NCBI GenBank assembly: GCA_902586025.1
Contig: CACIFV010000006.1
Coordinates: 1-55,332, forward strand
DNA length: 55,332 nucleotides
Origin: an uncultured Pelagibacteraceae bacterium
GTDB taxonomy: Bacteria; Pseudomonadota; Alphaproteobacteria; Pelagibacterales; Pelagibacteraceae
Reading direction: 5' to 3'
Made by a program: the position numbers and the translations under genes. Numbering within the stretch: position 1 is the first letter of the stretch; every line of letters begins with the position of its first letter. The notes under the pieces were generated by a model that was not told the DNA's origin, did not search any database, and saw only the letters and a program-made list of their open reading frames with translations. Positions 2,992 to 16,007 of the stretch are shown piece by piece.

Positions 2992-4776
2992 ATGGCTAAA
3001 ATGACAACCGAAGAAGCTTTTGTAAAAGTTTTACAAATGCATGGTATTGAACATTCGTTTGGTATTATTGGTTCTGCATTCATGCCTATTTCTGATCTTT
3101 TTCCAGAAGCTGGAATAACTTTTTGGGACGTTGCTCATGAAACAAATGGTGGATTGATTGCTGATGGTTACACAAGAGCAACTGGAAAAATGTCAATGGT
3201 GATTGCTCAAAATGGTCCAGGAATTACAGGACTTGTTACACCAATAAAAACCGCTTACTGGAATCATACTCCATTACTATTAGTTACACCTCAAGCTGCA
3301 AATAAAACTATGGGCCAAGGTGGTTTTCAAGAAGTAGAGCAAATGAATTTATTTAAAGACATGGTGTGTTATCAAGAAGAAGTTAGAGATCCATCAAGAA
3401 TGGCAGAAGTTTTAAATAGAGTAATAGAAAAAGCATTTAGAGGTTCAGCGCCTGCACAAATAAATGTACCAAGAGATTTTTGGACACAAGTTATAGATAT
3501 AGAATTACCTCCAATTGTAAGATTTGAAAGACAAGGTGGTGGAAAAGATGCTGTTGATAGAGCTTCAAAATTATTATCAGATGCAAAATTCCCAGTAATT
3601 TTATCTGGAGCAGGAGTTGTTATAGGTGATGCGATTGATGATTGTAAAAAATTAGCAGAAAAGCTTGATGCACCTGTATGCAATGGATATCAACATAATG
3701 ATAGTTTTCCAGGAAGCCATCCATTAGCTGTTGGCCCATTAGGGTACAACGGATCTAAAGCTGCAATGGAGTTAATTTCAAAAGCTGACGTTGTTTTAGC
3801 ATTAGGAACAAGATTAAATCCATTTTCAACATTACCAGGGTATGGAATTGATTACTGGCCAAAAGATGCAACAATTATTCAAGTAGATATGAACCCCGAT
3901 CGTATTGGCTTAACAAAGAAAGTTACAGTTGGTATTTGCGGTGATGCTAAAATGGTAGCTCAACAAATATTAGAAAAACTCTCATCAAATGCTGGAGATA
4001 ATGGGAGAGAAGATAGAAAAAATCTAATTCATCAAACTAAATCTGCATGGTTGCAAACTCTTACAAGTTTAGATCATGAGGATGATGACCCAGGAACTGT
4101 TTGGAATAAAGAAGCAAGAGAAAGAGATAAAGATAGAATGTCTCCAAGACAAGCATGGAGAGCTATTCAAGCTGGGATGCCAGAAAATGTTATAATTTCA
4201 AGTGATATTGGAAATAATTGTGCAATTGGTAACGCATACCCAACATTTGAAAAACCAAGAAAATATTTGGCACCAGGTTTATTTGGACCATGTGGATATG
4301 GATTTCCATCTATTCTTGGAGCAAAAATTGGATGTCCAGATACTCCAGTTATAGGTTTTGCTGGTGATGGAGCATTTGGAATAAGCATGAATGAAATGAG
4401 CTCTTGTGCAAGAGAAGAGTGGCCTGCAATAACAATGGTAATTTTTAGAAATTATCAATGGGGTGCTGAAAAAAGAAATTCAATTTTATGGTTCGATGAT
4501 AATTTTGTTGGAACAGAGTTAGATCCAGAATTAAGTTATGCAAAAGTTGCTAATGCATGTGGTTTAAAAGGTGTAATTGCAAATACAATGGAAGAAACCA
4601 CTAAAGCTATTAAACAATCATGTGAAGATCAGAAAAAAGGTATTACTACATTTATTGAAATAATTCTAAATCAAGAATTAGGTGAGCCGTTCAGAAGAGA
4701 TGCTATGAAAAAACCAGTTAAAGTAGCTGGTATAAGCAAGAGTGATATGAAACCTCAAAAGTCTCTTGTTAGTTGA
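2992..4776 (+). CDS. xsc: Sulfoacetaldehyde acetyltransferase Xsc
   Basis: This 594-residue thiamine-diphosphate enzyme converts sulfoacetaldehyde and phosphate to acetyl phosphate and sulfite. The three domains of the family are in order: N-terminal PYR domain with the FWDVAHETNGGLIADGY segment carrying the conserved glutamate near residue 52, central domain near 185-330, and C-terminal PP domain with the GDGAFGISMNEM ThDP/Mg motif near residue 456. The AQNGPGITG and RNYQWGAEKRN segments are of the Xsc type rather than acetolactate synthase. The length matches the family (about 590). A good Shine-Dalgarno (AAGAAGG, 2979-2985) sets the start. It is divergent from suyAB, which also makes sulfite. 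No phosphate acetyltransferase gene, needed to use acetyl phosphate as acetyl-CoA, lies in this window. Confidence 0.93.
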   Translation: MAKMTTEEAFVKVLQMHGIEHSFGIIGSAFMPISDLFPEAGITFWDVAHETNGGLIADGYTRATGKMSMVIAQNGPGITGLVTPIKTAYWNHTPLLLVTPQAANKTMGQGGFQEVEQMNLFKDMVCYQEEVRDPSRMAEVLNRVIEKAFRGSAPAQINVPRDFWTQVIDIELPPIVRFERQGGGKDAVDRASKLLSDAKFPVILSGAGVVIGDAIDDCKKLAEKLDAPVCNGYQHNDSFPGSHPLAVGPLGYNGSKAAMELISKADVVLALGTRLNPFSTLPGYGIDYWPKDATIIQVDMNPDRIGLTKKVTVGICGDAKMVAQQILEKLSSNAGDNGREDRKNLIHQTKSAWLQTLTSLDHEDDDPGTVWNKEARERDKDRMSPRQAWRAIQAGMPENVIISSDIGNNCAIGNAYPTFEKPRKYLAPGLFGPCGYGFPSILGAKIGCPDTPVIGFAGDGAFGISMNEMSSCAREEWPAITMVIFRNYQWGAEKRNSILWFDDNFVGTELDPELSYAKVANACGLKGVIANTMEETTKAIKQSCEDQKKGITTFIEIILNQELGEPFRRDAMKKPVKVAGISKSDMKPQKSLVS

Positions 4777-4813
4777 GATTAGTAAAATTTCATTATAAAA
4801 ATTTAATTTACCG

Positions 4814-5020
4814 ATGAGTAATAATTTAAAAGTTTCAATAATTATAATACTTGGAGTTATAGCATTGTATATATCAACTCAGTATTATTCAGGTTTTAAT
4901 AAAAGCAAAACTATCAAAGCGTGTATAATTGGAAAAGCTGAATTAGATTCGAATAAACCTGAGAGCGAAAGGCTTTCTGCTGATGAGGTTAAAAAATTTT
5001 GTGAAGATCAAATAAAATGA
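4814..5020 (+). CDS. Small membrane-anchored protein of unknown function (68 aa)
   Basis: The 68-residue product starts with a short polar N-terminus, then a hydrophobic segment at residues 6-25 (VSIIIILGVIALYIST) that is either a membrane anchor or an uncleaved signal, followed by a charged domain of about 40 residues containing two cysteines (near 37 and 63). The two cysteines could form a disulfide if the domain is periplasmic. Its stop codon overlaps the ATG of the next gene (ATGA), so it is translationally coupled to the aminotransferase. It lies 37 nt after xsc and probably belongs to the same transcript. I do not recognise the family. Confidence 0.75.
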   Translation: MSNNLKVSIIIILGVIALYISTQYYSGFNKSKTIKACIIGKAELDSNKPESERLSADEVKKFCEDQIK

Positions 5021-6165
5021 TGAAAAAATCAAAAAGATCAGATGTTGATCCATTTATAGTAATGGATGTAATGGAATCAGCAAGAATTGCAGAGGAAAAA
5101 GGTAAAGATATAATTCATATGGAGGTAGGTCAGCCAGGAACACCAGCACCTAAGATCGCAAAAGATTATATTACTAATGAGATAAACAAAAATAATCTAG
5201 GTTACACAGTATCACTTGGTCTACCTGCTTTAAGAGCAAAAATTTCAAAGCTATATGGAGATTGGTACAATTTAGATTTAAATCCAAATAGAATAGTAGT
5301 TACAACAGGCTCCTCTGGAGCTTTTATATTATCCTTTTCTGCACTATTTGATAGTGGAGACAGAGTTGGAATTGGTTCTCCAAGTTATCCTAGTTATAGA
5401 CAAATACTAAAATCACTAAGTTTGGAAACTGTAGATATTCAAACCAAACTTCAAAATAGATTTCAACCTGTTCCAGATGATATTCTAAATAATAATTTAA
5501 ATGGAATTCTAGTTGCATCACCTGCAAATCCAACTGGGTCTATGTTAGATAAACAATCGTTAGAGAATTTAATTAATACTGCAAATGAGAATAATGTAAG
5601 TTTTATTAGTGATGAAATTTATCATGGAATTCAATATGAAAATAATCCAACATCAGCTCTAGAGATTACAGATAATTGCTATGTAATTAATTCTTTTTCA
5701 AAATACTTTTCAATGACTGGTTGGCGAATAGGGTGGATGGTTGTACCAGAAGATCATGTTAGACAAGTAGAAAGACTTTCGCAAAATTTGTTTGTTTGTC
5801 CTCCACACGCAAGTCAAGTTACAGCTCTTGCTTCATTAGATGCAAATGAAGAGTTACAATCGAATGTTGAGGTATATAAAAAAAATAGAGAGATACTTTT
5901 AGAAGAATTACCGAAAGCAGGATTAAAAAAGTTTTCACCACCAGATGGTGCTTTTTACATTTATGTTGATATTTCTGAATATTCAAATGATAGCTTAGCT
6001 TTTTGTAAAAAAGTTTTAGATGAAGCAAATGTTGCTATAACACCAGGAATTGATTTTGATCAAAAAAGAGGAAATTCTACTATCCGATTCTCATACGCTA
6101 GAAGCACAAAAGATATAATTGAAGGTGCTAAGAGAATTAAAGATTTTATGTCTAAAAATTATTAA
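5017..6165 (+). CDS. PLP-dependent class I/II aminotransferase
   Basis: This 382-residue fold-type I aminotransferase has the expected landmarks: GLPALRAKISKLY near residue 68, ASPANPTGS near 170, ISDEIYHGI near 197 and the Schiff-base lysine at K229 in NSFSKYFSMTGWRIG. The arginine that binds the substrate carboxylate is in the IRFSYARS segment near 358. The donor cannot be read from sequence. Because it closes an operon behind xsc, transamination of a sulfonated amino acid such as cysteate, which would give sulfopyruvate, is a possible job, but the family also contains aspartate, aromatic and general aminotransferases. It is not the class III enzyme known as taurine-pyruvate aminotransferase. 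An intrinsic terminator begins at its stop codon. Confidence 0.85.
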   Translation: MMKKSKRSDVDPFIVMDVMESARIAEEKGKDIIHMEVGQPGTPAPKIAKDYITNEINKNNLGYTVSLGLPALRAKISKLYGDWYNLDLNPNRIVVTTGSSGAFILSFSALFDSGDRVGIGSPSYPSYRQILKSLSLETVDIQTKLQNRFQPVPDDILNNNLNGILVASPANPTGSMLDKQSLENLINTANENNVSFISDEIYHGIQYENNPTSALEITDNCYVINSFSKYFSMTGWRIGWMVVPEDHVRQVERLSQNLFVCPPHASQVTALASLDANEELQSNVEVYKKNREILLEELPKAGLKKFSPPDGAFYIYVDISEYSNDSLAFCKKVLDEANVAITPGIDFDQKRGNSTIRFSYARSTKDIIEGAKRIKDFMSKNY

Positions 6166-6211
6166 AAGGGGTCAGCTCAATTGGTTATTACCAAAAGAGC
6201 TCCCCTTTTTT
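6164..6211 (+). terminator. Intrinsic terminator after the xsc-aminotransferase operon
   Basis: AAAAGGGG (6164-6171) and AGCTC (6174-6178) pair with GAGCT (6197-6201) and CCCCTTTT, giving a GC-rich stem with a 2-nt bulge and an 18-nt loop, ending in a run of six T at 6206-6211. The left arm starts within the stop codon of the aminotransferase gene. The A run and T run also make it potentially bidirectional. Confidence 0.75.
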
Positions 6212-6513
6212 ATGCCATTTTGGCCAAATCCATCAAATGGATTTAGTTTGTGTTATTTTTAATATGTGATATCTCACCAGCTAAGTGTCAGGTGGCGTTA
6301 TTCTAAGCATTTGCACCTCCTTCACTTATAAAAATAAGTTTTAGGTAGGTTGTATTCAACAAATTTATTTCTATTTTTTATAAATATACTATTTGAATAC
6401 AACCTGCCTCTTTAGTAGATTCTCGATATCAAAATAATCTAAATATTCCATAACTCTTAAATGAAACTTATGTCACAGAGACAGATAATAAATATATTTG
6501 TAATTAAAATCTC
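6212..6513 (+). other. Gene-poor, highly structured segment, possible small RNA
   Basis: No convincing protein gene lies in these 300 nt. Two strong inverted repeats are present: AAATCCAT-CAA-ATGGATTT at 6226-6244 (perfect 8-bp stem) and a 17-bp stem with one G-U pair between 6343-6359 and 6393-6409. Between them (6265-6330) are several short complementary GGTG/CACC blocks that could fold with one another. The layout, terminator upstream and long hairpin before a T-rich stretch, would suit an independent RNA or a long structured leader for the gene at 6514. It does not match any riboswitch or housekeeping RNA consensus I can recall. Confidence 0.35.
6343..6409. repeat. Long inverted repeat (17-bp stem, 33-nt loop)
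   Basis: AGGTAGGTTGTATTCAA at 6343-6359 is complementary to TTGAATACAACCTGCCT at 6393-6409, apart from one position that can form a G-U pair. The loop is AT-rich and contains further short complementarity. A CTTTAG follows the right arm, so this may be the 3' hairpin of a transcript. The single G-U wobble hints that RNA rather than DNA pairing is being preserved, though one position is weak evidence. Confidence 0.7.
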
Positions 6514-6705
6514 ATGAAAACTATATTTGTTATTGGATCAAAAAAACATACTTTGAAGTACACAAGAAAAATGCCCGAGGGCGAAGTTAAGAAAATGAAA
6601 TCTTTTGTTACAAAAAAAGGTCAAAAACTTGAAAAAACTTCTAAATTTAAAATTTTAAAAGTCTCAGACGATAAAACTTCAAGAACTTTCAAAATCAGTC
6701 TTTAA
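6514..6705 (+). CDS. Small basic protein of unknown function (63 aa)
   Basis: The 63-residue product is rich in lysine (about one residue in four), has no signal peptide, cysteine or hydrophobic helix, and alternates short beta-like stretches (KTIFVIG, KFKILKV, SRTFKISL) with basic loops. The high positive charge suggests nucleic-acid or ribosome contact, but that is only an inference. The gene lies 9 nt upstream of the photolyase-like gene on the same strand, so the two are probably co-transcribed. I do not recognise a family. The start is the only ATG consistent with the frame. Confidence 0.65.
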   Translation: MKTIFVIGSKKHTLKYTRKMPEGEVKKMKSFVTKKGQKLEKTSKFKILKVSDDKTSRTFKISL

Positions 6706-6714
6706 TTATTTAAA

Positions 6715-8172
6715 ATGAACAAAATCGTATGGTTCAGGAACGATCTACGTGTATCTAATAATGATGCATTTAATGAGGCTGTAAAATCAGGAAAAATTTT
6801 ACCAATTTACATATTTGATAAAGAATATCACAAATTACCTACATCAAGCTCATTCCATCTAGATTTTTTAAAATCATCATTAGACGATTTATCAAAAACA
6901 CTAAGTGAAAAATATAATGCTAAACTCAATATATATTACGGAAATACATTAGAAATTTTAAGTCATTTAACTAATAAATTTAAAATAAATGAGGTTTATT
7001 CAAATATAATATTCAAGAATATGTATATAACTGACTTAGATAAAGAAGTTAGTTTTTTATTTAAAGAAAAAAATATTAATTGGAAAATATCAAATCAATT
7101 TGGTGTTCAATTAAATCATAGAATAAGAAATAAATGGTCATATAATTGGAATAAATTTATAGATAGTGAAAGTGTAAATTCAAATTTAAATTGTGAGTTT
7201 ATTTCAGATAATTATGTAGAGGATTTATCGAAAGTAGAAACAAACAATTTGGAAAATGGAAAAATTCAGATTGGTGGAAGACAAAAAGCACTCCAACTTT
7301 TAGATTCTTTTCTTAATGACAGATCAGAAAATTACCAAAAAGAAATGTCTTCGCCGATAACAGGAGAAACTTCTTGTTCTAGATTAAGCCCCCATATTGC
7401 ATTCGGAAATATTTCTATCAAGGAAATTTTTAAAAAGACTAATGACAAGTTAAAATCCAATTTATCTTTTTCAAAAAAGAAATCCTTAATTGCTTTTAAA
7501 AGTCGATTAGCCTGGCACTGTCATTTTATTCAAAAGTTATATGATGAACCAGAAATTGAATTTAGAAATATGAATAGCGCTTATAATGGAATAAGAGAAA
7601 ATGATTTTAATGAAGATTATCATTTAGCATGGAAAAATGGAACTACTGGTTATCCGTTTGTTGATGCTTGTATGAGGTACCTAAGAACTAATGGATGGAT
7701 TAATTTTAGAATGAGAGCAATGTTAGTTTCATTTGCTTCTTATCAATTATGGCTTGATTGGAAAAAAACATCAAAACATTTAGCAAAATTATTTACAGAT
7801 TATGAGCCGGGTATTCATTATTCACAATTTCAAATGCAATCAGGAACAACAGGAATAAATTCAATAAGAATTTACAATCCAATTAAACAATCAATTGATC
7901 AAGATCCTGCAGGAGATTTTATTAAAAAATGGGTTATAGAATTAAAAAATGTTCCAGGAAAATTAGTTCATGAACCATGGAAATTAACATTCATTGAACA
8001 AAAGGGTATAAATTTAGTAATTGGTAAAGATTACCCATCGCCAATAGTTGATAATAAAATATCAACTAAAATTGCTAAGGAAAAAATCTGGAATATTAAG
8101 AAAACAACAGAAGCAAAAGTTATTTCAGCTGAAGTATTAAAAAAACACGCTAGTTTATCTCAAAGAAGATAA
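6715..8172 (+). CDS. Photolyase/cryptochrome-family flavoprotein with variant active site
   Basis: This 485-residue protein has the N-terminal Rossmann-like photolyase domain (IVWFRNDLRVSNNDAF at the start) and the C-terminal FAD-binding helical domain, with TGETSCSRLSPHIAFGNIS near 217 and TGYPFVDACMRYLRTNGW near 310. Classical enzymes repair UV pyrimidine dimers using light. However, the segment that in E. coli PhrB carries the flavin N5 asparagine and first electron-transfer tryptophan (AANNGGWQWAASTG) reads GIHYSQFQMQSGTTG at 366-380 here. A Phe (F372) and a His (H368) stand at those approximate positions. It may be a divergent photolyase or a light-sensing cryptochrome. It is 9 nt behind a small basic protein gene. 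Confidence 0.85.
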   Translation: MNKIVWFRNDLRVSNNDAFNEAVKSGKILPIYIFDKEYHKLPTSSSFHLDFLKSSLDDLSKTLSEKYNAKLNIYYGNTLEILSHLTNKFKINEVYSNIIFKNMYITDLDKEVSFLFKEKNINWKISNQFGVQLNHRIRNKWSYNWNKFIDSESVNSNLNCEFISDNYVEDLSKVETNNLENGKIQIGGRQKALQLLDSFLNDRSENYQKEMSSPITGETSCSRLSPHIAFGNISIKEIFKKTNDKLKSNLSFSKKKSLIAFKSRLAWHCHFIQKLYDEPEIEFRNMNSAYNGIRENDFNEDYHLAWKNGTTGYPFVDACMRYLRTNGWINFRMRAMLVSFASYQLWLDWKKTSKHLAKLFTDYEPGIHYSQFQMQSGTTGINSIRIYNPIKQSIDQDPAGDFIKKWVIELKNVPGKLVHEPWKLTFIEQKGINLVIGKDYPSPIVDNKISTKIAKEKIWNIKKTTEAKVISAEVLKKHASLSQRR

Positions 8173-8175
8173 AAT

Positions 8176-8313
8176 TTAATTACCGTAAGGTATTCCAACT
8201 AATTTTCCATTTTCATTATAAAAATAAAAAAAGTTCGGGTTTATAACCTTAGGCTTTTTTGAAAGCGTTTTAGATTTATTTGTTGATTTATTTTTTTTTA
8301 ATTTACGTTTCAC
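8176..8313 (-). CDS. Small lysine-rich protein (45 aa), antisense to neighbours
   Basis: Reading the minus strand in the gap after the photolyase gene gives a GTG-initiated frame of 45 codons ending in TAA at 8176-8178. The N-terminal half is almost all Lys, Ser, Thr and Asn; the C-terminal third reads NPNFFYFYNENGKLVGIPYGN, a compact protein-like motif unlike random AT-rich translation. The GTG start has only a weak AAAAAGAT upstream. There is no signal peptide. The tail pattern of an aromatic patch plus GKLVG(I)PYG suggests a folded or peptide-binding end. Function unknown; it may be missed by annotation pipelines because of its length and start codon. Confidence 0.5.
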   Translation of the reverse strand: MKRKLKKNKSTNKSKTLSKKPKVINPNFFYFYNENGKLVGIPYGN

Positions 8314-8424
8314 ATCTTTTTATTACTGAAAAAAATAAGGTAAACTATTGATAACTTTTCAACCCAGATATGCATTTATTCTTAATCAATAAATTCAAAT
8401 TAAGTATATCTATTCATTTTACTT

Positions 8425-11016
8425 ATGAAATTATCTGAATTATTTCAGCAAAATGGCTTTGATTTAGGAAATCTAAAAGAATCCTTTGGACTAATAGATG
8501 GAATATCAGAGCACATAATAGCTGGAAGTGATGAAGTTTTAGCAAAGCAGCATCAAATTTCAGAAAACATTTATTTTTTAATTAAAGGCAAAGCTACATT
8601 TACCAAGTATTTTGAAACTAAATCTATAACCTTTGCAAAAATAACAAAGCCTGCAACACCATTAGGTATATCTGGACTTAATCAACCCAATAGATTTATG
8701 GGTGAAATATTTATTGAAGGTGGAACAGAATATATCTCGATAAAACTAGATGATTTAAAAGATTTACAACAAAAAAAAAGTAAACTTATATCAACATTAT
8801 ACTCAGCGATTTCTTTTTTTTCTTTCCAACTGCTTGTCTCTTCAAGAAATTTAAACACTTTGTATAAAGATGATGAAATACAAATTTCTCCGGGCATCCC
8901 ATCAGAAAAAAGTATTACGAATATACATAGAATTAAATCTGCTACTTTTTTTTCAACACTTACTGATGATGACTTAGAAAAGTTTATTAAATTAGGTAAT
9001 ATTAAGATGTATTCATCAAATCAATATATAGTTAAAGAGGGAGATGTTTCTAAAGGTTTAAAAATATTATTAAGTGGCAAAGTTGATGGCTTATTCCACA
9101 ATTTTATTAATGGAAAAATAATAAGAAATTTTAGAACCCTAACTAGAGCTGGTATTGCTTTAACTTTATCTTCTGGAAAAGGAGATTTTTTTAATCCATA
9201 TACAATTAAATCTACTAGGGATACAAAAGTTTTACATATTTCCAACGAAGCACTTGAAAATCTGATTATTTCTGACCCAGAATTATCAATAAAGATTTTC
9301 AAAAGACAATTGTGGCAATTAGGTCGTTTCCAACAAAGTGCAACTGGTCTGACAAAATATTCAGCGGAAAACGAATTAGAATTTGTTAATTTATTATTGA
9401 AAGATAATACTGCAAGAATACCTGCTAGTTCTAAGTTATATAGTATTCCACACTTATTAAAGAGTACTCATACTTATGCAATGGCATTTGATGTTGTTTA
9501 CGAACTACTTATTAAAGGAAATGAGATAGAAAAATCATTATCTAGTTTAATAAAAGATACCTTAAATAATTTAGAAAGAGAGTCTCGTTTCCACAGCCAA
9601 TTAAATATTATTTATAATAGAGTTTCAAATTCTTCTAGTGATTCAGATAAAACAAAATTAAGAGAGTTAACCAATTCAAATTTCACCAAAGCTTTTGATA
9701 ATGTTAAATATGTAATTAAGGGTTGGGAAAATTTGCCAGATGAACCAACAAATATTTTTTTTTACAATCACTTAGCAGCTATAGATGATAATCAGCTTGC
9801 AAATGGGCATTCATTTTCAATCGACAGTCATTTCATCAGTTCAAAAATATTACATCCAAAATATAATGATGGAGGCCAACGTATCGTTAGAACAAGTCGG
9901 AACACAGAATTTTGGAGATATAATTACTATGAAAATTTAGATTACATTTTTGTTCATACACCAGAGTCTGATAAGTTGGACGAAAGCGAAGAGGAAAAGA
10001 AATTAAGAAAACAAAAACTTTTTGACGAAGCTCAAAAGGTATTTAATCAAAAACAACCGATTGTAATTGCCCCCGAAGGAACATCAGAAACAGAAGATAA
10101 TAAAACAATAACATCTCCAGGACCATTTAAAGCTGGTGCATTTAATCTTGCATTTAAACTTAATCCTAAACCAAAACTAATTCCAATTGCCCTTGCTAAT
10201 TTTGATTACCCAGTTTCTAAAACAATATATTCAGCAGTTATTAAGGAGCCAATAACAATAAGTGATCATGTCAAAGATCCAGAAAATCAAGAGGAAATGA
10301 AAAGCTTCTTAGATAATTACAGAACCAAATTTAGATCTTATGTAGAAGAGGCTATTGATTTAGCTAAAAATGTTCAAGACAACATAGATAAAATAGAAAA
10401 TTTGAAAACTAATGTAAATTTAGTTAGTCCAGTTGAAGAAGAGTTTGAGCTCGACGTTAGAGAATTAGAACATAATTCTTTTCAACAGACAAAAACAAAT
10501 AATAGTGTTGCTTTGTATGGAAGTTCAACTTTTAAAATGTGGGATAATGCCAAAAATGATTTATCAATAAGTAATCTTTATAATTTAGGCTTTGGGGGTT
10601 CAACTTTAGTCTCTTGTAGAAGATATTTTGATAGATTGGTTGCTCCTTTAAATCCATCTAATCTTTTCTTTTATGCTGGAGATAATGATATTGGATATGG
10701 AATGGATAGCGATGAATTGTTAAAAGAATTTTTATTATTTTCTAATCAAGTTGAAGAAAAACTACCAAATGCGAAATGTTTTTTTATATCTATTAAACCT
10801 AGTCCTTTTAGAAGGGATCTTATGACAACAATTTTAGATGCGAATTCAAAGATAAAAAAACACTTAACCAATTTAAAAATGTGGGATTATGTTGATATTA
10901 CAACACCCATGATAAATGCTGGTTATGATAAGTTTTACGATGAAGATCCACTACATATGAATGAACTTGGATATAGTTTATTAAGTAAGCTTGTAAGAGA
11001 CAAAATTTATAACTAA
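8425..11016 (+). CDS. Fusion: two cNMP-binding-like domains + PlsC-type acyltransferase + SGNH hydrolase
   Basis: This 863-residue protein is a three-part fusion. Residues about 20-125 and 165-290 resemble two cyclic-nucleotide-binding (CAP_ED) beta-barrels; the second contains the typical IVKEGDVSKGLKILLSGKV pattern. The usual phosphate-binding cassette (GE-A...R-A) is not evident in either, so the ligand is open. Residues about 435-620 are a glycerolipid acyltransferase of the PlsC type, with the H-x4-D motif at H449-D454 (NHLAAID) and the EGT motif at 551-553. Residues about 690-863 are an SGNH/GDSL esterase with all four blocks: GSS (699-701), GFGGST, GDND (752-755) and DPLH (841-844). 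No signal peptide is present. A DUF4174-like gene follows after 9 nt. The likely role is regulated acyl transfer or lipid remodelling, inferred only. Confidence 0.8.
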   Translation: MKLSELFQQNGFDLGNLKESFGLIDGISEHIIAGSDEVLAKQHQISENIYFLIKGKATFTKYFETKSITFAKITKPATPLGISGLNQPNRFMGEIFIEGGTEYISIKLDDLKDLQQKKSKLISTLYSAISFFSFQLLVSSRNLNTLYKDDEIQISPGIPSEKSITNIHRIKSATFFSTLTDDDLEKFIKLGNIKMYSSNQYIVKEGDVSKGLKILLSGKVDGLFHNFINGKIIRNFRTLTRAGIALTLSSGKGDFFNPYTIKSTRDTKVLHISNEALENLIISDPELSIKIFKRQLWQLGRFQQSATGLTKYSAENELEFVNLLLKDNTARIPASSKLYSIPHLLKSTHTYAMAFDVVYELLIKGNEIEKSLSSLIKDTLNNLERESRFHSQLNIIYNRVSNSSSDSDKTKLRELTNSNFTKAFDNVKYVIKGWENLPDEPTNIFFYNHLAAIDDNQLANGHSFSIDSHFISSKILHPKYNDGGQRIVRTSRNTEFWRYNYYENLDYIFVHTPESDKLDESEEEKKLRKQKLFDEAQKVFNQKQPIVIAPEGTSETEDNKTITSPGPFKAGAFNLAFKLNPKPKLIPIALANFDYPVSKTIYSAVIKEPITISDHVKDPENQEEMKSFLDNYRTKFRSYVEEAIDLAKNVQDNIDKIENLKTNVNLVSPVEEEFELDVRELEHNSFQQTKTNNSVALYGSSTFKMWDNAKNDLSISNLYNLGFGGSTLVSCRRYFDRLVAPLNPSNLFFYAGDNDIGYGMDSDELLKEFLLFSNQVEEKLPNAKCFFISIKPSPFRRDLMTTILDANSKIKKHLTNLKMWDYVDITTPMINAGYDKFYDEDPLHMNELGYSLLSKLVRDKIYN

Positions 11017-11025
11017 TATTTTTTA

Positions 11026-11568
11026 ATGAGTTTTAAAAAATATCTATGGAAATGTAGATTGTTAGTCCTCAATACGCCTAATTACAGCCATCCAGAATAT
11101 AAAAGATCAAAAGATTTATACCAAAAAGAAATTAAAGGCTTTCACAAAAGATATATAAAATTAGTTACAAAATTAGATAAATCAAAAAAATTTAAAGTTA
11201 CTTTAATTGGTTTTGATGGCACAATAAAAATTGAGCTAGATAAAGTATATACAAAAAAAATCTTTGGAATAGTTGATAAAATGCCAATGAATAAACTAAT
11301 CAAAGATAAAAAATTTAAACCATTAAATCTTTCTTTATTTTCAGATTATAAACCAGAGACAACCTTAAAAGGCTTAGGTTTTAAAGATAAAGAAAAGGCA
11401 TTGTTTACTGTTTCAGCTATAAAAAAAAGACCAATAAAATATCAAGTAAATGTTATTGCAACTATGCTAGGTAGGGCTAAAAATCATCCTAACAAAACAA
11501 AAGACATGAATGATGCTATAATTGTTTTTAAAAAATGGATGGAAAATTACAAAGCAAATAAAAAATGA
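11026..11568 (+). CDS. DUF4174-like protein with an extra C-terminal domain
   Basis: The 180-residue product has an N-terminal half resembling DUF4174: a KVTLIGFDGTIKIE segment near residues 57-70 followed by IFGIVDKMPMNKLI, matching the family's 'LIG-DG-K ... IDxMPMR' pattern. The family is of unknown function with a thioredoxin-like look. From about residue 110 a second basic helical region follows (KGLGFKDKEKAL ... NVIATMLGRAKNHPNKT ... FKKWMENY), which I do not recognise. There is no signal peptide. The gene starts 9 nt after the acyltransferase-SGNH fusion and its stop overlaps the pilin start by 4 nt, so the three are likely one operon. Confidence 0.65.
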   Translation: MSFKKYLWKCRLLVLNTPNYSHPEYKRSKDLYQKEIKGFHKRYIKLVTKLDKSKKFKVTLIGFDGTIKIELDKVYTKKIFGIVDKMPMNKLIKDKKFKPLNLSLFSDYKPETTLKGLGFKDKEKALFTVSAIKKRPIKYQVNVIATMLGRAKNHPNKTKDMNDAIIVFKKWMENYKANKK

Positions 11569-12059
11569 AAAATAAAGGCTTTACATTAATAGAACTCTTA
11601 GTTGTTGTAGCAATCATTGGGATCTTAGCTGCAGTAGGTGTAGTTGCTTATAGTGGTTATACAAGTGGTGCTAAAGCAAGTGCCGCAAAAGCAAATTTAA
11701 AATTAGTCACAAAATTTGTTTCTACTGAAATTATGAAATGTGTAATAGGAGAGGAATACATAATGGAAAAGACAATAGACTGTTCACAAAGAGCTGGAAG
11801 TCTTTATGTTTATAATGATGCTGCTAATTTAAAGAAACGAGTGGAAACATATTTTGATGGTAAACTAACAAATCCATATACTGGTGGGAAAGGTGTTGTT
11901 AGCAACAGTGGACTTCCTAATGGAGACAATGAGGTTGGAGAAATAAGACAACATGGTCAATCAACAGTGCCTGAAAGAATTAATTTTATGATATGTTTTA
12001 AATTACCTTGCTCAGATGCTAATAATAGAATTATAAAAACAATTATTTTACCTGAATAA
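11565..12059 (+). CDS. Type IV pilin-like protein (first copy)
   Basis: The 164-residue protein has a textbook class III signal: MKNKG, prepilin-peptidase cleavage before Phe6, Glu at position +5 of the mature chain, and a hydrophobic N-terminal helix (LLVVVAIIGILAAVGVVAY). The globular part contains cysteines near residues 54, 65, 144 and 149, probably forming disulfides, and a Gly-rich TGGKGVVSNSG loop. Its N-terminal 33 residues are nearly identical to the second pilin at 26109, while the rest differs. No assembly ATPase, platform protein or prepilin peptidase lies in the window, so the machinery must be elsewhere. ATGA overlap with the upstream gene indicates coupled translation. Confidence 0.9.
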   Translation: MKNKGFTLIELLVVVAIIGILAAVGVVAYSGYTSGAKASAAKANLKLVTKFVSTEIMKCVIGEEYIMEKTIDCSQRAGSLYVYNDAANLKKRVETYFDGKLTNPYTGGKGVVSNSGLPNGDNEVGEIRQHGQSTVPERINFMICFKLPCSDANNRIIKTIILPE

Positions 12060-12061
12060 AA

Positions 12062-12259
12062 ATGATTGAATTCTTATTTAAAGTATCACTACTAATCCTT
12101 GGTTTAATAGTTATTAGGTTTGGTATAATTCAGATTAGAAAGTACAAAAAAGGAGAAATTAGATCAAAGAATAATATTTTTAGTCAAATTTCATTTTTAA
12201 TTTTCTTTGCTGCAATTATAGGGTTAGTTATTTATTCAATTTTAGGCTTACTTGAGTAA
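12062..12259 (+). CDS. Small two-helix membrane protein (65 aa)
   Basis: The 65-residue product has two hydrophobic segments, near residues 3-21 and 42-63, separated by a basic loop (IRKYKKGEIRSKN) that should face the cytoplasm. It begins 2 nt after the pilin stop codon, so it is in the same operon and might serve as an accessory membrane protein, but nothing in the sequence shows a function. Similar two-helix proteins are common in small genomes and generally lack names. Confidence 0.7.
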   Translation: MIEFLFKVSLLILGLIVIRFGIIQIRKYKKGEIRSKNNIFSQISFLIFFAAIIGLVIYSILGLLE

Positions 12260-12303
12260 GCTAATTTATCTCATATATTAATTTTTAAATTCCAATAAAG
12301 AGC

Positions 12304-13737
12304 ATGATTATGAAAAAAATTATCTTCACTTTTCTCAGTATTTTATCTGTATTTAGTTATGCTAACGCTAAAGATTTTTTCCTAAATATAACTGATCAAA
12401 TAGCAGAAAATGAGTTTCGACTAAGCTACGGAGTTTCAGTTACTGATGTTAATAAAGATAATAAATATGATTTTGTAGTAACTGGCTTTGGTTTCAAAAA
12501 TTTAGCCCTTTCTTATAAGGATGGAAAATTAATAAACATTGTAAATGAAAAAATATTTACAGATGAAGAAAGAAGAACGATAGGTGTTGCCGCATGTGAT
12601 ATCGATCAAGATGGCTATGAGGAAATATATTTTTTAAATACTGATACATACAGTGGATCAAAAATTTATTCTGATCGACTAATAGATTTAAATAACAATA
12701 AATTCGAGGATTTATTTGAAAAAGAAATCAATCAAAGTGAATTAAACTTAACTGCAGGTAGGTCAGTTGTTTGTGTAGATAGAAATGGTGATGGTGCATA
12801 TGGTATTTATGTTGCAAATTATGGAGGTCCTACTCGATTTTATGAATTAATTAGAGATCGAATAAAAGATCAAGCTAAATCATTATCAATTGATAAAATT
12901 ACTGGAGGTAGAGCTATTGTTTCAGGACATATTCTTTCGGATAGATCTGATATTTTTGCAGCAAATGAGAGAGGAGACAACTTTTTATATTATAATTCTA
13001 AAGGTTCTTTCCAAGATGTTGCTGAAGAGTATGCAGTACAAGATAGATTTGAAAATGGTAGAGGAACAGCTTTGAGTGACCTTTTGTATAGAGGAAGATT
13101 AGATATCTTATCTTCAAACTGGGATGGAATGCATAGAGCATATGTTTTAGATGGAGATAAATTTAAAGATATATCAACATCTCCATATAATGATCCTACT
13201 AAAATTAGAACAGTTATTTCAGCTGATTTTGATAATGATGGATATGATGAAATTTTCATGAATAATATTGGAGAACCAAATAAACTTTTCAAAGTTTTAG
13301 AGGGTGGAAAATTTAAAGAAATTAAAATGGAAAATGGTTTAGAGACTGTTGGTCTTGGAACTGGTGCAGCTGTTGCGGATGTTGATGGAGATGGAATTTT
13401 AGAACTATTAGTTTCACATGGTGAGTCAGGTTTTCAGCCGTTAACTTTATATAAAGCAGATATAAAAAATTTTAATTATTTAAGAATTAAACCACTTAAT
13501 CAGTTTGGAGCTCCAGCAAGAGGTGCAACAGTAACAATGAAATCTAATAAAAGAATTCACTCAAAAACAATAGATGCAGGCTCAGGATATCTTTGTCAGA
13601 TGGAACCCGTTGCTCATTATGGGATAAGAAAAGACGAAAAAGACTTTAAAGTTGAAATTAAATGGACCGATGGATCAATAGAATCATTTGATATTGATGA
13701 ATTAAATAAAACTTACGAATTTAGACAAAAATTATAG
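12304..13737 (+). CDS. Secreted FG-GAP/VCBS repeat protein with ASPIC/UnbV domain
   Basis: The 477-residue protein starts with a cleavable signal peptide (MKKIIFTFLSILSVFSYANA). It carries several FG-GAP/VCBS-type calcium-binding repeats of the pattern D-x-[ND]-x-D-G near residues 53, 99, 158, 308 and 356 (for example DVNKDNKYD, DIDQDGYEE, DRNGDGAYG, DFDNDGYDE, DVDGDGILE). This indicates a beta-propeller outside the cytoplasm. The C-terminal 90 residues fit the ASPIC/UnbV domain (RGATVTMKSNKR ... DAGSGYLCQMEP ... WTDG) of the CRTAC1 family. The usual role is surface or extracellular protein binding. A second ATG at 12310 is an equally good start. It lies between pilin and small membrane genes. 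Confidence 0.85.
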   Translation: MIMKKIIFTFLSILSVFSYANAKDFFLNITDQIAENEFRLSYGVSVTDVNKDNKYDFVVTGFGFKNLALSYKDGKLINIVNEKIFTDEERRTIGVAACDIDQDGYEEIYFLNTDTYSGSKIYSDRLIDLNNNKFEDLFEKEINQSELNLTAGRSVVCVDRNGDGAYGIYVANYGGPTRFYELIRDRIKDQAKSLSIDKITGGRAIVSGHILSDRSDIFAANERGDNFLYYNSKGSFQDVAEEYAVQDRFENGRGTALSDLLYRGRLDILSSNWDGMHRAYVLDGDKFKDISTSPYNDPTKIRTVISADFDNDGYDEIFMNNIGEPNKLFKVLEGGKFKEIKMENGLETVGLGTGAAVADVDGDGILELLVSHGESGFQPLTLYKADIKNFNYLRIKPLNQFGAPARGATVTMKSNKRIHSKTIDAGSGYLCQMEPVAHYGIRKDEKDFKVEIKWTDGSIESFDIDELNKTYEFRQKL

Positions 13738-13795
13738 GACAATACTGCTCATTATATAGTGTTGAAAAATTATAAAGCTTTTATATATCAATCGT

Positions 13796-13939
13796 ATGAC
13801 TATTTGTTCTTTATCATTATTGGCATTATTTGTTTCAGGAATTGTAATGTATCTTTTAAGAGAACCATCTAAGGAAGAATTAAAAAAATTCAATAGTAAA
13901 ACCCAAGACCGAAGTAACTGGTCAAATATGGGTTTTTAA
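13796..13939 (+). CDS. Small single-pass membrane protein (47 aa)
   Basis: An ATG at 13796 opens a 47-codon frame ending at TAA 13937-13939. Residues 4-21 are a hydrophobic helix (CSLSLLALFVSGIVMYLL), followed by a charged tail with REPSKEELKKF and a polar end (DRSNWSNMGF). The clean helix-plus-charged-tail layout and its fit into the gap between two genes on the same strand support it. It ends 11 nt before the next ATG. Function unknown. Confidence 0.55.
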   Translation: MTICSLSLLALFVSGIVMYLLREPSKEELKKFNSKTQDRSNWSNMGF

Positions 13940-13950
13940 ATCATTTATTA

Positions 13951-14652
13951 ATGCATAGTATTAAAAATATACTTAGTCTTATTATATTTGTTATTTTTTT
14001 TTCAATTCCGATAAATTCAGCAAATTCTCAAGAAAAAAACTATTATCAAGATATCGTTAATGATTGGAATAAAATTTTCCCAGACAGAAATAGAAATGCG
14101 GCAGGTCCTAAATTTTTCAAATATATAATTGATAAAGATATCTCTTATGAAGATTTTGTAGAATATAATAAATTATATTGTGCAGTATCAGGTTCTTTAA
14201 TAAGTCCAAATGCTGTTCCAGAATATGTTTATTTAACTGAAAACAATACGGGTAAGAAGATATGTGGTGAATATTATAGATGCTGCATTCCGTGCTCCTG
14301 CGATTTAATGAAATATTCAAAAACAACTAAAATGAAACATAAATTTAAAGGCATAGAAAAAGAATTTTATGTTTTCACAATTGAAAATCCTTGTGGGAAA
14401 ACAGATTTTCCTGAAAGGGTAAACAAAAAATATTTTTGCAATGGCAATGATTTAGATACGAAACAAGTTTCTGTAATAGATGGAAAATTAGTTATTGGTC
14501 TATTACACAAAGCCAAAACCTGCACTCAATATAATGTTAATGCTATAGATAGACACCAAGTGACAGGTAGATATTGTAATCTTAGAAATAATACTCCATT
14601 AGATCAACTTCAGTCAGGTATGGGAGATATATTCATTAAACTTGCAAGATAA
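13951..14652 (+). CDS. Secreted cysteine-rich protein of unknown function
   Basis: The 233-residue product has a signal peptide ending near residue 26 (INSANSQ). The mature part carries about ten cysteines, including a dense cluster ICGEYYRCCIPCSCD near residues 104-118 and further single cysteines in NPCGK, YFCNG, KTCTQ and RYCNL. In a periplasmic protein such a pattern means several disulfides or a metal site; CC-x2-C-x-C is reminiscent of copper or iron-sulfur binding but does not match a motif I know. An H-x-V-T-G-R-Y-C segment lies near 206. It follows the FG-GAP protein and a small membrane protein on the same strand. I do not recognise the family. Confidence 0.75.
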   Translation: MHSIKNILSLIIFVIFFSIPINSANSQEKNYYQDIVNDWNKIFPDRNRNAAGPKFFKYIIDKDISYEDFVEYNKLYCAVSGSLISPNAVPEYVYLTENNTGKKICGEYYRCCIPCSCDLMKYSKTTKMKHKFKGIEKEFYVFTIENPCGKTDFPERVNKKYFCNGNDLDTKQVSVIDGKLVIGLLHKAKTCTQYNVNAIDRHQVTGRYCNLRNNTPLDQLQSGMGDIFIKLAR

Positions 14653-14676
14653 CACCAAGATTATATATTCATCAAA

Positions 14677-14946
14677 ATGGTATTATATAACGAAAAAATT
14701 AAACACCTTAGTTGTTCAGATTTAAGGGTATTTTTGAAAAGATTGGTCAAAGATAAGATAGAAAAAGAGTGGACCGAGGACTTCATTGATAATATGAACC
14801 TCGTAATAATTCCAAGAATGACAATAAAAAGACGTTATGAGAATAAGGGTATAGATATGTCAAGACTGATTGATAATCCTACCTACTATAAGCATGTCAA
14901 AAAGAGCGTCGACTCCCGTGGCAATCTTGAATTTAAAGATCGATAA
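14677..14946 (+). CDS. Small charged cytoplasmic protein of unknown function (89 aa)
   Basis: The 89-residue product has no signal peptide or membrane segment. It is highly charged and predicted to be helical, with LRVFLKRLVKDKIEKEW near the N-terminus and a basic middle part (PRMTIKRRYENKG). A single cysteine (LSCSDL) lies near residue 13. It starts 24 nt after the Cys-rich secreted protein gene. Its codons include somewhat more G and C (for example GTCGACTCCCGTGGC near 14908) than its neighbours, which may hint at a different history, but the gene is too short to judge. I do not recognise the family. Confidence 0.6.
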   Translation: MVLYNEKIKHLSCSDLRVFLKRLVKDKIEKEWTEDFIDNMNLVIIPRMTIKRRYENKGIDMSRLIDNPTYYKHVKKSVDSRGNLEFKDR

Positions 14947-15032
14947 TTATTTCCGATATGCCAATTTAATCCCTAGCACTGCATTCATATTTTCTGTAAG
15001 CTGTTTTAAAAAAACAAACTTAAGAGGGAAAT

Positions 15033-16007
15033 ATGAACAAATATTTTAAAATAATTGTTGCTTTATTATCGTCTCTATTTTTAAGTTTCTCAGCAAATTC
15101 AACTGAAGTAAAATTTGGACACGTAGGAAAACCTGGATCTTTATTTTCTGCATCAGTTGATCATTTTGCTAAACTTGCAAATGAGAGATTAGGCAGCAAA
15201 GGAAAAGTAACTGTTTTTGGTTCTTCGCAACTTGGTAAAGACAAACAAGGAATGCAAAAACTAAAATTGGGTACAGTTAACATGTGGTTACCTTCATCAG
15301 TAATGGCATCTATTCATGATGAGTTTGGTGTATTTGATATGCCTTTCATTATTAAAGACAGAAAACACATGAATAAAGTTGAAAGCCAAGTTTTACCAGG
15401 AATGTTTAAAAATCTTGAAGATAAAACTGGATACAAAGTTATTGCTGTTTGGGAAAATGGATTTAGACATATCACAAACAACACTAGACCAATTAACACT
15501 CCAGGTGACTTAAAAGGAATTAAATTAAGAACACCTAAATCAAAATGGAGAGTTAAAATGTTCCAATCATATGGTGCAAACCCAACTCCAATGTCTTTCT
15601 CAGAAGTATTTACTGCTTTGAAAACAGGAACAATGGATGGACAAGAAAACCCATATGCTCAGATTGCTAGTGCTAAATTCCAAGAAGTTCAAAAATATCT
15701 ATCAATCACAGGTCACGTTTACACTCCTGCTTATGTAACAGTACATAAAGACCACTGGAGCAAACTACCTGCAGATGTACAAAGTATTTTAGAGCAAGCT
15801 GCTAAAGATACACAAAAATTTGTGTACGCTGAAGCTGCTAATCTTGAAAAATCTTTATTGGGAGTTATCAAATCAGCTGGAGTTCAAGTTAATGAAGCTG
15901 ATAAAGGTGCTTTCATTAGTGCAAGTAAAGGAATATACGATCAATTCGCGTCAGAAGTACCAACTGGTGGTGCGTTAATTGATAAAGTATCGTCTTTAGC
16001 AAATTAA
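15033..16007 (+). CDS. TRAP transporter periplasmic solute receptor (DctP type, first system)
   Basis: The 324-residue protein has a signal peptide (to about residue 23, SFSANS) and the DctP receptor fold. The carboxylate-binding arginine is expected in IKLRTPKS near residue 165 and the second lobe motif is MDGQENPYAQ near 205. The substrate is presumably an organic acid. A strong Shine-Dalgarno (AAGAGGGAAAT) precedes the ATG. It heads the TRAP-crotonase-CoA-transferase operon, so the imported acid may be activated to a CoA thioester. A hairpin directly follows, probably giving this gene higher mRNA levels than the permease genes. Confidence 0.92.
   Translation: MNKYFKIIVALLSSLFLSFSANSTEVKFGHVGKPGSLFSASVDHFAKLANERLGSKGKVTVFGSSQLGKDKQGMQKLKLGTVNMWLPSSVMASIHDEFGVFDMPFIIKDRKHMNKVESQVLPGMFKNLEDKTGYKVIAVWENGFRHITNNTRPINTPGDLKGIKLRTPKSKWRVKMFQSYGANPTPMSFSEVFTALKTGTMDGQENPYAQIASAKFQEVQKYLSITGHVYTPAYVTVHKDHWSKLPADVQSILEQAAKDTQKFVYAEAANLEKSLLGVIKSAGVQVNEADKGAFISASKGIYDQFASEVPTGGALIDKVSSLAN

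Follow-up and report, generated by a model that had tools for sequence, protein, structure and literature searches.

Which reaction, and under what control, is carried out by a protein that joins two sensor-like barrels, an acyltransferase and an esterase in one chain? This question is raised by a gene in a 55,332-nt stretch of DNA from an uncultured Pelagibacteraceae bacterium of the SAR11 group (assembly GCA_902586025.1, contig CACIFV010000006.1, positions 1–55,332; the whole stretch is called the window here). The gene is a single uninterrupted open reading frame (ORF) at 8425–11016 on the forward strand, and its 863 codons encode an 863-aa protein with two cyclic-nucleotide-binding (CNB) domains, a PlsC-type acyltransferase domain and an SGNH hydrolase domain, in the order CNB-CNB-PlsC-SGNH. 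The fusion is real, and its observation was confirmed. The reading preferred here, with a probability estimated at about 0.4, is that the protein is a soluble, ligand-gated acyl-exchange enzyme that is accessory to the ordinary PlsC of the cell.

Pfam analysis showed that the protein matched cNMP_binding (PF00027; 37.3 bits over two stretches, cut-off 27.5), Acyltransferase (PF01553; 31.1 bits, cut-off 23) and Lipase_GDSL_2 (33.3 bits, cut-off 32.9). The three kinds of domain that a first-pass annotation had read from the DNA alone were all recovered above cut-off in one intact ORF, and the motifs named there (H449-x4-D454, EGT 551–553, GSS 699–701, GDND 752–755 and DPLH 841–844) were all found at those residues. 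The PF01553 match spanned model positions 61–131 only, and the HX4D half of the model was unmatched. Up to E 1, Pfam gave no family with a Crp/Fnr-type DNA-binding helix-turn-helix following the CNB part. The strongest hydrophobic 19-residue stretch (residues 121–139) reached a mean of merely 1.53; therefore, no clear membrane helix was recognised.

Structure prediction, which the first-pass annotation had proposed as a check, gave CNB, SGNH and PlsC/GPAT folds in models of low confidence. The full-length AlphaFold2 model was built with 48 sequences of two groups as input and had a mean predicted local distance difference test score (pLDDT) of 56.5, and a separate model of residues 305–665 had a mean pLDDT of 52.7; with such values, both models show the fold class and not atomic geometry. 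In the full-length model, CNB1 (residues 1–138) matched 3mdp (Gmet_1532) with a VIA Z of 13.1 (root-mean-square deviation [rmsd] 3.0, 127 aligned), and residues 691–863 matched the GDSL lipase 4rw0 with a Z of 16.5 (rmsd 2.9, 168 aligned). The VIA matches listed for this model were mainly SGNH with a few CNB, and none of those listed was a PlsC, which is why residues 305–665 were modelled separately. The first twelve VIA rows of the separate model were all PlsC-superfamily acyltransferases. The best match was the algal GPAT 8ia1 (Z 11.3, rmsd 4.7, 243 aligned), and further Z values were 10.4 for 1k30, 9.3 for 1iuq, 9.2 for human GPAT1 (8e4y), 9.0 for Thermotoga maritima PlsC (5kym), 5.5–6.2 for the PatA entries and 5.0 for LpxM; the first unrelated row was row 13 (Z 5.0). 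The matches started at residue 378 for 8ia1 and at about residue 342 for 1k30, so that part of the helices ahead of the catalytic domain falls inside the matches, as in soluble plastid GPAT. When a sequence profile of the acyltransferase region was compared with PDB chains, no GPAT chain was found; the hits were 5kym (E 0.18) and an unrelated chain (E 0.41).

The fusion was not a product of chance, since 117 stretches encoding a relative were confirmed in the genome-contig collection and the whole-gene ratio of nonsynonymous to synonymous change (dN/dS) between the window and five SAR11 relatives was 0.053–0.083. When the same five relatives were compared by domain, CNB1 was the loosest (0.11–0.21), with PlsC at 0.03–0.07 and SGNH at 0.03–0.08; against L041, for which synonymous change was near saturation, the domains gave 0.06–0.11. 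Every domain of the fusion is under purifying selection. The best 80 of the 117 relatives were kept, and 49 of these were titled Pelagibacteraceae (85–99%, best segment) and 31 Alphaproteobacteria (55–57%).

A search for the same domain order elsewhere, also suggested in the first-pass annotation, found the fusion in SAR11, in nearby groups and in the genera g126 and g393; identity to the window reached 85–99% in SAR11 and 54–57% in the nearby groups, and was about 30% in two other genera of proteobacteria. Within the order, 16 of 197 genomes matched (14 of 149 good ones), in 2 of 10 genera, with two matches cut by contig ends. The class sample gave 19 matches in 385 genomes, most through the SGNH or CNB part only; besides the genome of the window, G356, G416 and G312 carried full fusions and G379 a CNB-PlsC gene. 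In the phylum sample (52 of 398 genomes), full fusions besides that of the window were found in G697 and G712, CNB-PlsC genes in G584 and G587, and single domains in the rest. Searches within single orders gave 24 of 80 genomes for that of G356 (all genus g159, two cut by contig ends), 3 of 11 for that of G416 (all genus g126), five full fusions in 145 genomes for that of G712 (all genus g393, including G697 and G712) and two CNB-PlsC genes in 48 genomes for that of G587.

Of the plasmid records, 51 matched; only that of Persicobacter (Bacteroidota) spanned 80% or more of the query, with 92% covered by two pieces, and the 19 other plasmid matches listed were SGNH only. In Persicobacter, a CNB-CNB-PlsC gene (655 aa, TAG stop) is followed after one base by the ATG of an SGNH gene (209 aa), and the two proteins matched the same Pfam families as the fusion. 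This adjacency suggests that the sensor, acyltransferase and esterase activities belong together. Fused or adjacent parts were thus found in five groups (the SAR11 family, the order of G356, genus g126, genus g393 and Persicobacter), a count that does not imply independent origins. G379 has a single-CNB gene and then the CNB-PlsC gene on a 5.5-kb contig. In G584 and G587 (f190), the 20 kb read held no SGNH relative of the fusion family; both have an AXE1-type esterase gene near the CNB-PlsC gene, a proximity that is suggestive in two genomes only. In G584 (L155 8437–12512), the CNB-PlsC and AXE1 esterase genes converge and overlap at their ends, and on its other side the CNB-PlsC gene is flanked by an FHA-GGDEF gene. 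The loci of free-standing SGNH relatives, only about 2–4 kb long, gave no CNB-PlsC relative.

On the preferred reading, the fusion enzyme would be soluble and would work at the membrane surface. The SGNH domain would cleave an acyl (or acetyl) group off an ester substrate, and the PlsC/GPAT-type domain would then move a long acyl chain from acyl-CoA or acyl-ACP (acyl carrier protein) to the hydroxyl so exposed, on that molecule or on a related one. The tandem CNB barrels would serve as an allosteric switch that answers a signal other than cyclic AMP (cAMP), or a protein partner, and the enzyme would be accessory to the housekeeping PlsC. Here we infer the substrate, both chemistries, the order of the steps, their coupling, the ligand and the location in the cell.

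The fusion looks accessory because a second PF01553 match, stronger than that of the fusion (81–85 bits vs. 30–34 bits), was present in all 12 other fusion-bearing SAR11 genomes examined. All 13 SAR11 genomes without the fusion also had at least one PF01553 match (11 with one, two with two). The fusion might instead be the cell's own PlsC, acting in the second step of phosphatidic acid synthesis, as it was the sole PF01553 match in its own genome. However, that genome is 83% complete and its ordinary PlsC is probably missing through an assembly gap; with the counts in the other genomes, this explanation became most improbable and was dropped.

Residue conservation was counted in ORFs of at least 300 codons with E <1e-30 from all loci collected, with identical ones removed. 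The resulting 103 rows comprised 52 at ≥80% identity to the window protein, 37 at 50–80% and 14 at <50%; among them, one gene is represented by overlapping loci (G312 twice), one SAR11 row is truncated and another row covers SGNH only, with gaps in the PlsC part. The Persicobacter SGNH protein, which is short, and most SGNH proteins that stand alone fell below the length limit. In the 37 rows at 50–80%, mean identity to the window was 71.8% for PlsC, 59.6% for SGNH, 53.8% for the helical region, 47.4% for CNB2 and 39.3% for CNB1, PlsC being the best conserved domain between SAR11 and these relatives. H449 was kept in 97 of the 101 rows that have a residue there (51, 37 and 9 by identity class), and was replaced by Ser in four rows from three genomes of genus g126. 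D467 was present in the same 97 rows (51, 37 and 9), with Cys in exactly the four His-less ones. Position 454 was Asp in all 51 SAR11 rows, Asp in 3 and Glu in 34 of the 37 rows at 50–80%, and Asp in none of 13 distant rows (Pro in five, Glu in four, Ala in two, Met and Thr in one each). The EGT block read EGT in the SAR11 and 50–80% rows and EGQ, EGK, EGE, EGN or EGT in distant rows, and E551 of this PEG block was kept in 13 of 13 family members aligned. The acyltransferase had been annotated as intact; its letters are present in the window protein, but the HX4D Asp is not conserved across the family. Judged by this alignment, HX4D is therefore present in the window protein without being what the family conserves. 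D467 is a candidate partner of the His, inferred from co-occurrence across few independent lineages, and E551 is an alternative candidate.

The region resembles plastid-type soluble GPAT (1iuq, 1k30, 8ia1) and PlsC (5kym) in the fold of residues from about 342 or 378 to 665 and in the PEG-type block, and resembles plastid-type GPAT also in the helices ahead of the catalytic domain; unlike these enzymes, the fusion family has no conserved HX4D Asp and adds CNB and SGNH domains. In squash GPAT, the acceptor-site residues are K193, R235 and R237, according to the available text of PMC4792965. The same text offers a precedent for a shifted acid, since in PatA, the mycobacterial phosphatidylinositol mannoside (PIM) acyltransferase, the HX4D Asp is structural and the His pairs instead with E200, from another part of the chain. 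PatA belongs to the same superfamily (Z 6.2), although its Z was well under that of GPAT, it has no CNB or SGNH domain, and the acid that accompanies the His in the fusion family is D467, as a candidate partner only. A bolder form of the preferred reading is that a complete deacylation-reacylation (Lands-type) cycle would run in one soluble chain, switched by a CNB pair that no longer reads cAMP and built on a PlsC-superfamily clade whose catalytic His is served by an acid outside HX4D, with D467 as the candidate; this form is doubtful.

Several observations weigh against acyl exchange. Because the Asp at the +5 position of HX4D varies, acyltransferase activity across the family is uncertain. 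Genus g126 has three genomes in which H449 and D467 were lost and the SGNH residues were kept, and G379, G584 and G587 have a CNB-PlsC protein that keeps H449 with no attached SGNH domain; the two activities are therefore separable in evolution. A conserved operon across lineages was rejected, as no partner was common to the lineages read. The main rival is a CNB-gated esterase, in which the SGNH domain would work and the PlsC-type domain would bind lipid or acyl groups and dock to the membrane, without transfer in some or all members. Neuropathy target esterase, in which CNB domains are carried on a lipid esterase, is the model for it; this enzyme and the CNB-patatin proteins have a patatin fold, not SGNH, and no acyltransferase domain. 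The rival fits the invariance of the SGNH residues in aligned rows while the HX4D acid varies, the absence of the His in g126, and the poor PF01553 scores of several full-fusion members (18.3 bits in L050, 17.1 in L152 and none at E ≤0.01 in L117; 22.9 in G312 and 22.4 in G938 in the genome search, or 25.6 and 25.5 with neighbours). It is harder to square with the presence of H449 and D467 in 97 of 101 rows, with PlsC as the best conserved domain and with the three CNB-PlsC genomes, and we consider it unlikely.

The separable parts also bear on a fusion of convenience, in which the CNB pair would control two independent enzymes of one pathway that act on different molecules. In keeping with this explanation, for each enzyme part there is some lineage that lacks it or has it in altered form and still retains the CNB parts; but the explanation leaves the fused or adjacent parts in five taxonomic groups, whose origins need not be independent, unexplained, and it was judged improbable.

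Analysis of the SGNH domain showed that blocks I, II, III and V (Ser, Gly, Asn and His) were complete in the window protein as S700, G725, N754 and H844. GSS, G725, N754, D841 and H844 were present in every row with an SGNH domain (51, 37 and 10 rows), and S700, G725, N754, D841 and H844 were also seen in the aligned Persicobacter SGNH protein. The description of this hydrolase as intact was borne out at the level of these residues. Sialate O-acetylesterase (6njc, 7pzg), PAF acetylhydrolase Ib (1wab) and GDSL lipases (4rw0) share the fold and catalytic blocks of residues from about 670 to 863; unlike the window protein, they are not fused to CNB or PlsC. A further explanation is an acyl relay, in which the acyltransferase domain would hand an acyl group to the SGNH domain for transfer to a third acceptor. 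The acyltransferase and SGNH parts are fused or adjacent here, as an acyltransferase is fused to a C-terminal SGNH domain in the AT3-SGNH O-acyltransferases, in which SGNH is thought to make the final transfer (available text of PMC9558356). However, that text describes the AT3-SGNH enzymes as membrane proteins with 11 membrane helices, an integral membrane AT3 fold and SGNH outside the cytoplasm, and does not name CNB; the fusion protein has no clear membrane helix and an acyltransferase of another fold. The relay is accordingly quite unlikely.

The two N-terminal barrels had been described as CNB-like without an obvious phosphate-binding cassette, and the alignment agreed, as the cassette Glu was absent. 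The consensus of this cassette is Gly-Glu plus Arg. In CNB1, G81, S83, P88 and R90 were invariant in 12 of 12 diverse family members; the Glu position was Ile or Trp although G81 was kept, and in an ungapped alignment to Plasmodium PKG, R90 lay one residue short of the cassette Arg. In CNB2, the Gly-Glu...Arg pattern was not seen on reading the family alignment. The relative L121 scored 25.5 with PF00027, under the cut-off. Class III cyclase (PF00211) was found in none of 14 SAR11-family genomes and in none of five genomes of genus g393, other cyclase classes not being searched; it was present in 4 of 4 genomes of genus g159, in one of three of genus g126 and in G379, G584 and G587. Because the cassette Glu is missing and none of the 14 SAR11-family genomes showed a class III cyclase, with that search limited to the one class, cAMP is unlikely as the ligand of the SAR11 barrels. 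The tandem CNB proteins PKG, PKA-R and Epac, together with Gmet_1532, likewise have successive CNB barrels, placed before an effector or next to it; unlike them, the window protein has barrels without the cassette Glu and a lipid-type enzyme as effector.

The architecture is apparently undescribed, as the first-pass annotation had supposed. NCBIfam had no model near cut-off for the fusion protein or for the six relatives scanned, and no description of CNB-CNB-PlsC-SGNH was found in the literature, which was judged mostly by title and with subscription journals mostly outside coverage. The available text of a paper on the lipocone (PMC12419801) reports CNB and SGNH in other fusions or operons and does not mention PlsC.

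The coordinates of the gene, its domains and its neighbours are listed in Table 1.

Table 1. Features of the fusion locus, in window coordinates.
Feature	Position	Strand	Evidence
CNB-CNB-PlsC-SGNH fusion gene (863 aa)	8425..11016	+	ORF, Pfam, full-length relatives
CNB1 barrel, residues 1–115	8425..8769	+	VIA match to 3mdp (Z 13.1), family alignment
CNB2 barrel, residues 165–300	8917..9324	+	Pfam, alignment; standard phosphate-binding cassette not seen
Helical region preceding acyltransferase, residues 301–410	9325..9654	+	Partly inside plastid-type GPAT matches
PlsC/GPAT-type acyltransferase domain, residues 411–645	9655..10359	+	Pfam, VIA fold matches
H449-x4-D454	9769..9786	+	Alignment
D467	9823..9825	+	Alignment; in 97/97 rows keeping H449
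EGT 551–553	10075..10083	+	Alignment; third residue variable in distant members
SGNH hydrolase domain, residues 686–863	10480..11013	+	Pfam, fold matches
GSS 699–701, nucleophile S700	10519..10527	+	Alignment
GDND 752–755, block III N754	10678..10689	+	Alignment
DPLH 841–844, D841 and H844	10945..10956	+	Alignment
DUF4174 gene, 9 bp downstream of fusion gene	11026..11568	+	Pfam, sister loci
Photolyase-family gene, upstream, 252-bp gap	6715..8172	+	Pfam, sister loci

The genomic neighbourhood was compared in 64 SAR11-type loci, many of which represent the same species through different collections. The DUF4174 gene was the next window gene downstream in 62 of them, with L039 and L096 cut at the contig end, and is a probable operon partner of the fusion in SAR11. 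A photolyase-family gene like that of the window was found upstream in 56 of the 64 loci, some of the remaining ones being cut short. In G189 (L121 3691–10739), the fusion is flanked by a photolyase FAD-domain gene on one side and a DPRP photolyase-related gene on the other, and MsrA is near; the setting may be one of light or oxidative stress. The neighbours were a Zn-peptidase and a histone-deacetylase-family gene in L050 (54–57% group), a flavin reductase in L152 (genus g393), and a PAP2 gene and a sulfatase in Persicobacter. As the neighbours differ by lineage, the pathway is not readable from the context. The proposal of lipid remodelling under phosphate limitation found no support, since the neighbours scanned (window 2992–16007) included no recognisable phosphate-starvation gene. 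A promoter scan gave 21 sites against a mean of 26.2 in shuffles, that is, fewer than in the shuffles.

A pilin-like gene (PF07963) at 11565–12059 overlaps the DUF4174 gene. It showed 39–71% best identity in most example sister loci and 99% in L051, with flanking genes at 90–100%, and was not detected in other example sister loci; on these sequence comparisons, the position is a hypervariable pilin slot. A 233-aa ORF at 13951–14652 had no Pfam match at E 1 and was 97–98% conserved in the example sister SAR11 loci.

In the phylogenetic tree, the window gene joined the gene of L050, from an Alphaproteobacteria single cell, ahead of that of L121/G189, which represents a genus of its own family (97/98). 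This hints at horizontal transfer of the fusion gene, in a tree with long branches and unequal composition. A phage origin was considered and rejected, as no phage record matched and the PHROGs matches were weak (20.9 and 20.3 bits), and so was a defence origin, with no PADLOC match.

The recurrence of the fusion, together with the two-gene form, suggests that the sensor, the acyltransferase and the esterase take part in a single process, and because the same parts recur fused or neighbouring in several distant bacterial groups, this looks like a real family of acyl-remodelling enzymes. If both sites act on one substrate, streamlined genomes would have a single-protein, ligand-gated means of changing acyl chains without new synthesis. 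The fusion would also offer a test case for a CNB fold that serves lipid metabolism by reading signals that are not cyclic nucleotides, and for a further catalytic arrangement in the PlsC superfamily besides those of GPAT and PatA. If the bolder, Lands-type reading is true, a lineage among the ocean's most abundant bacteria would carry a dedicated acyl-remodelling switch.

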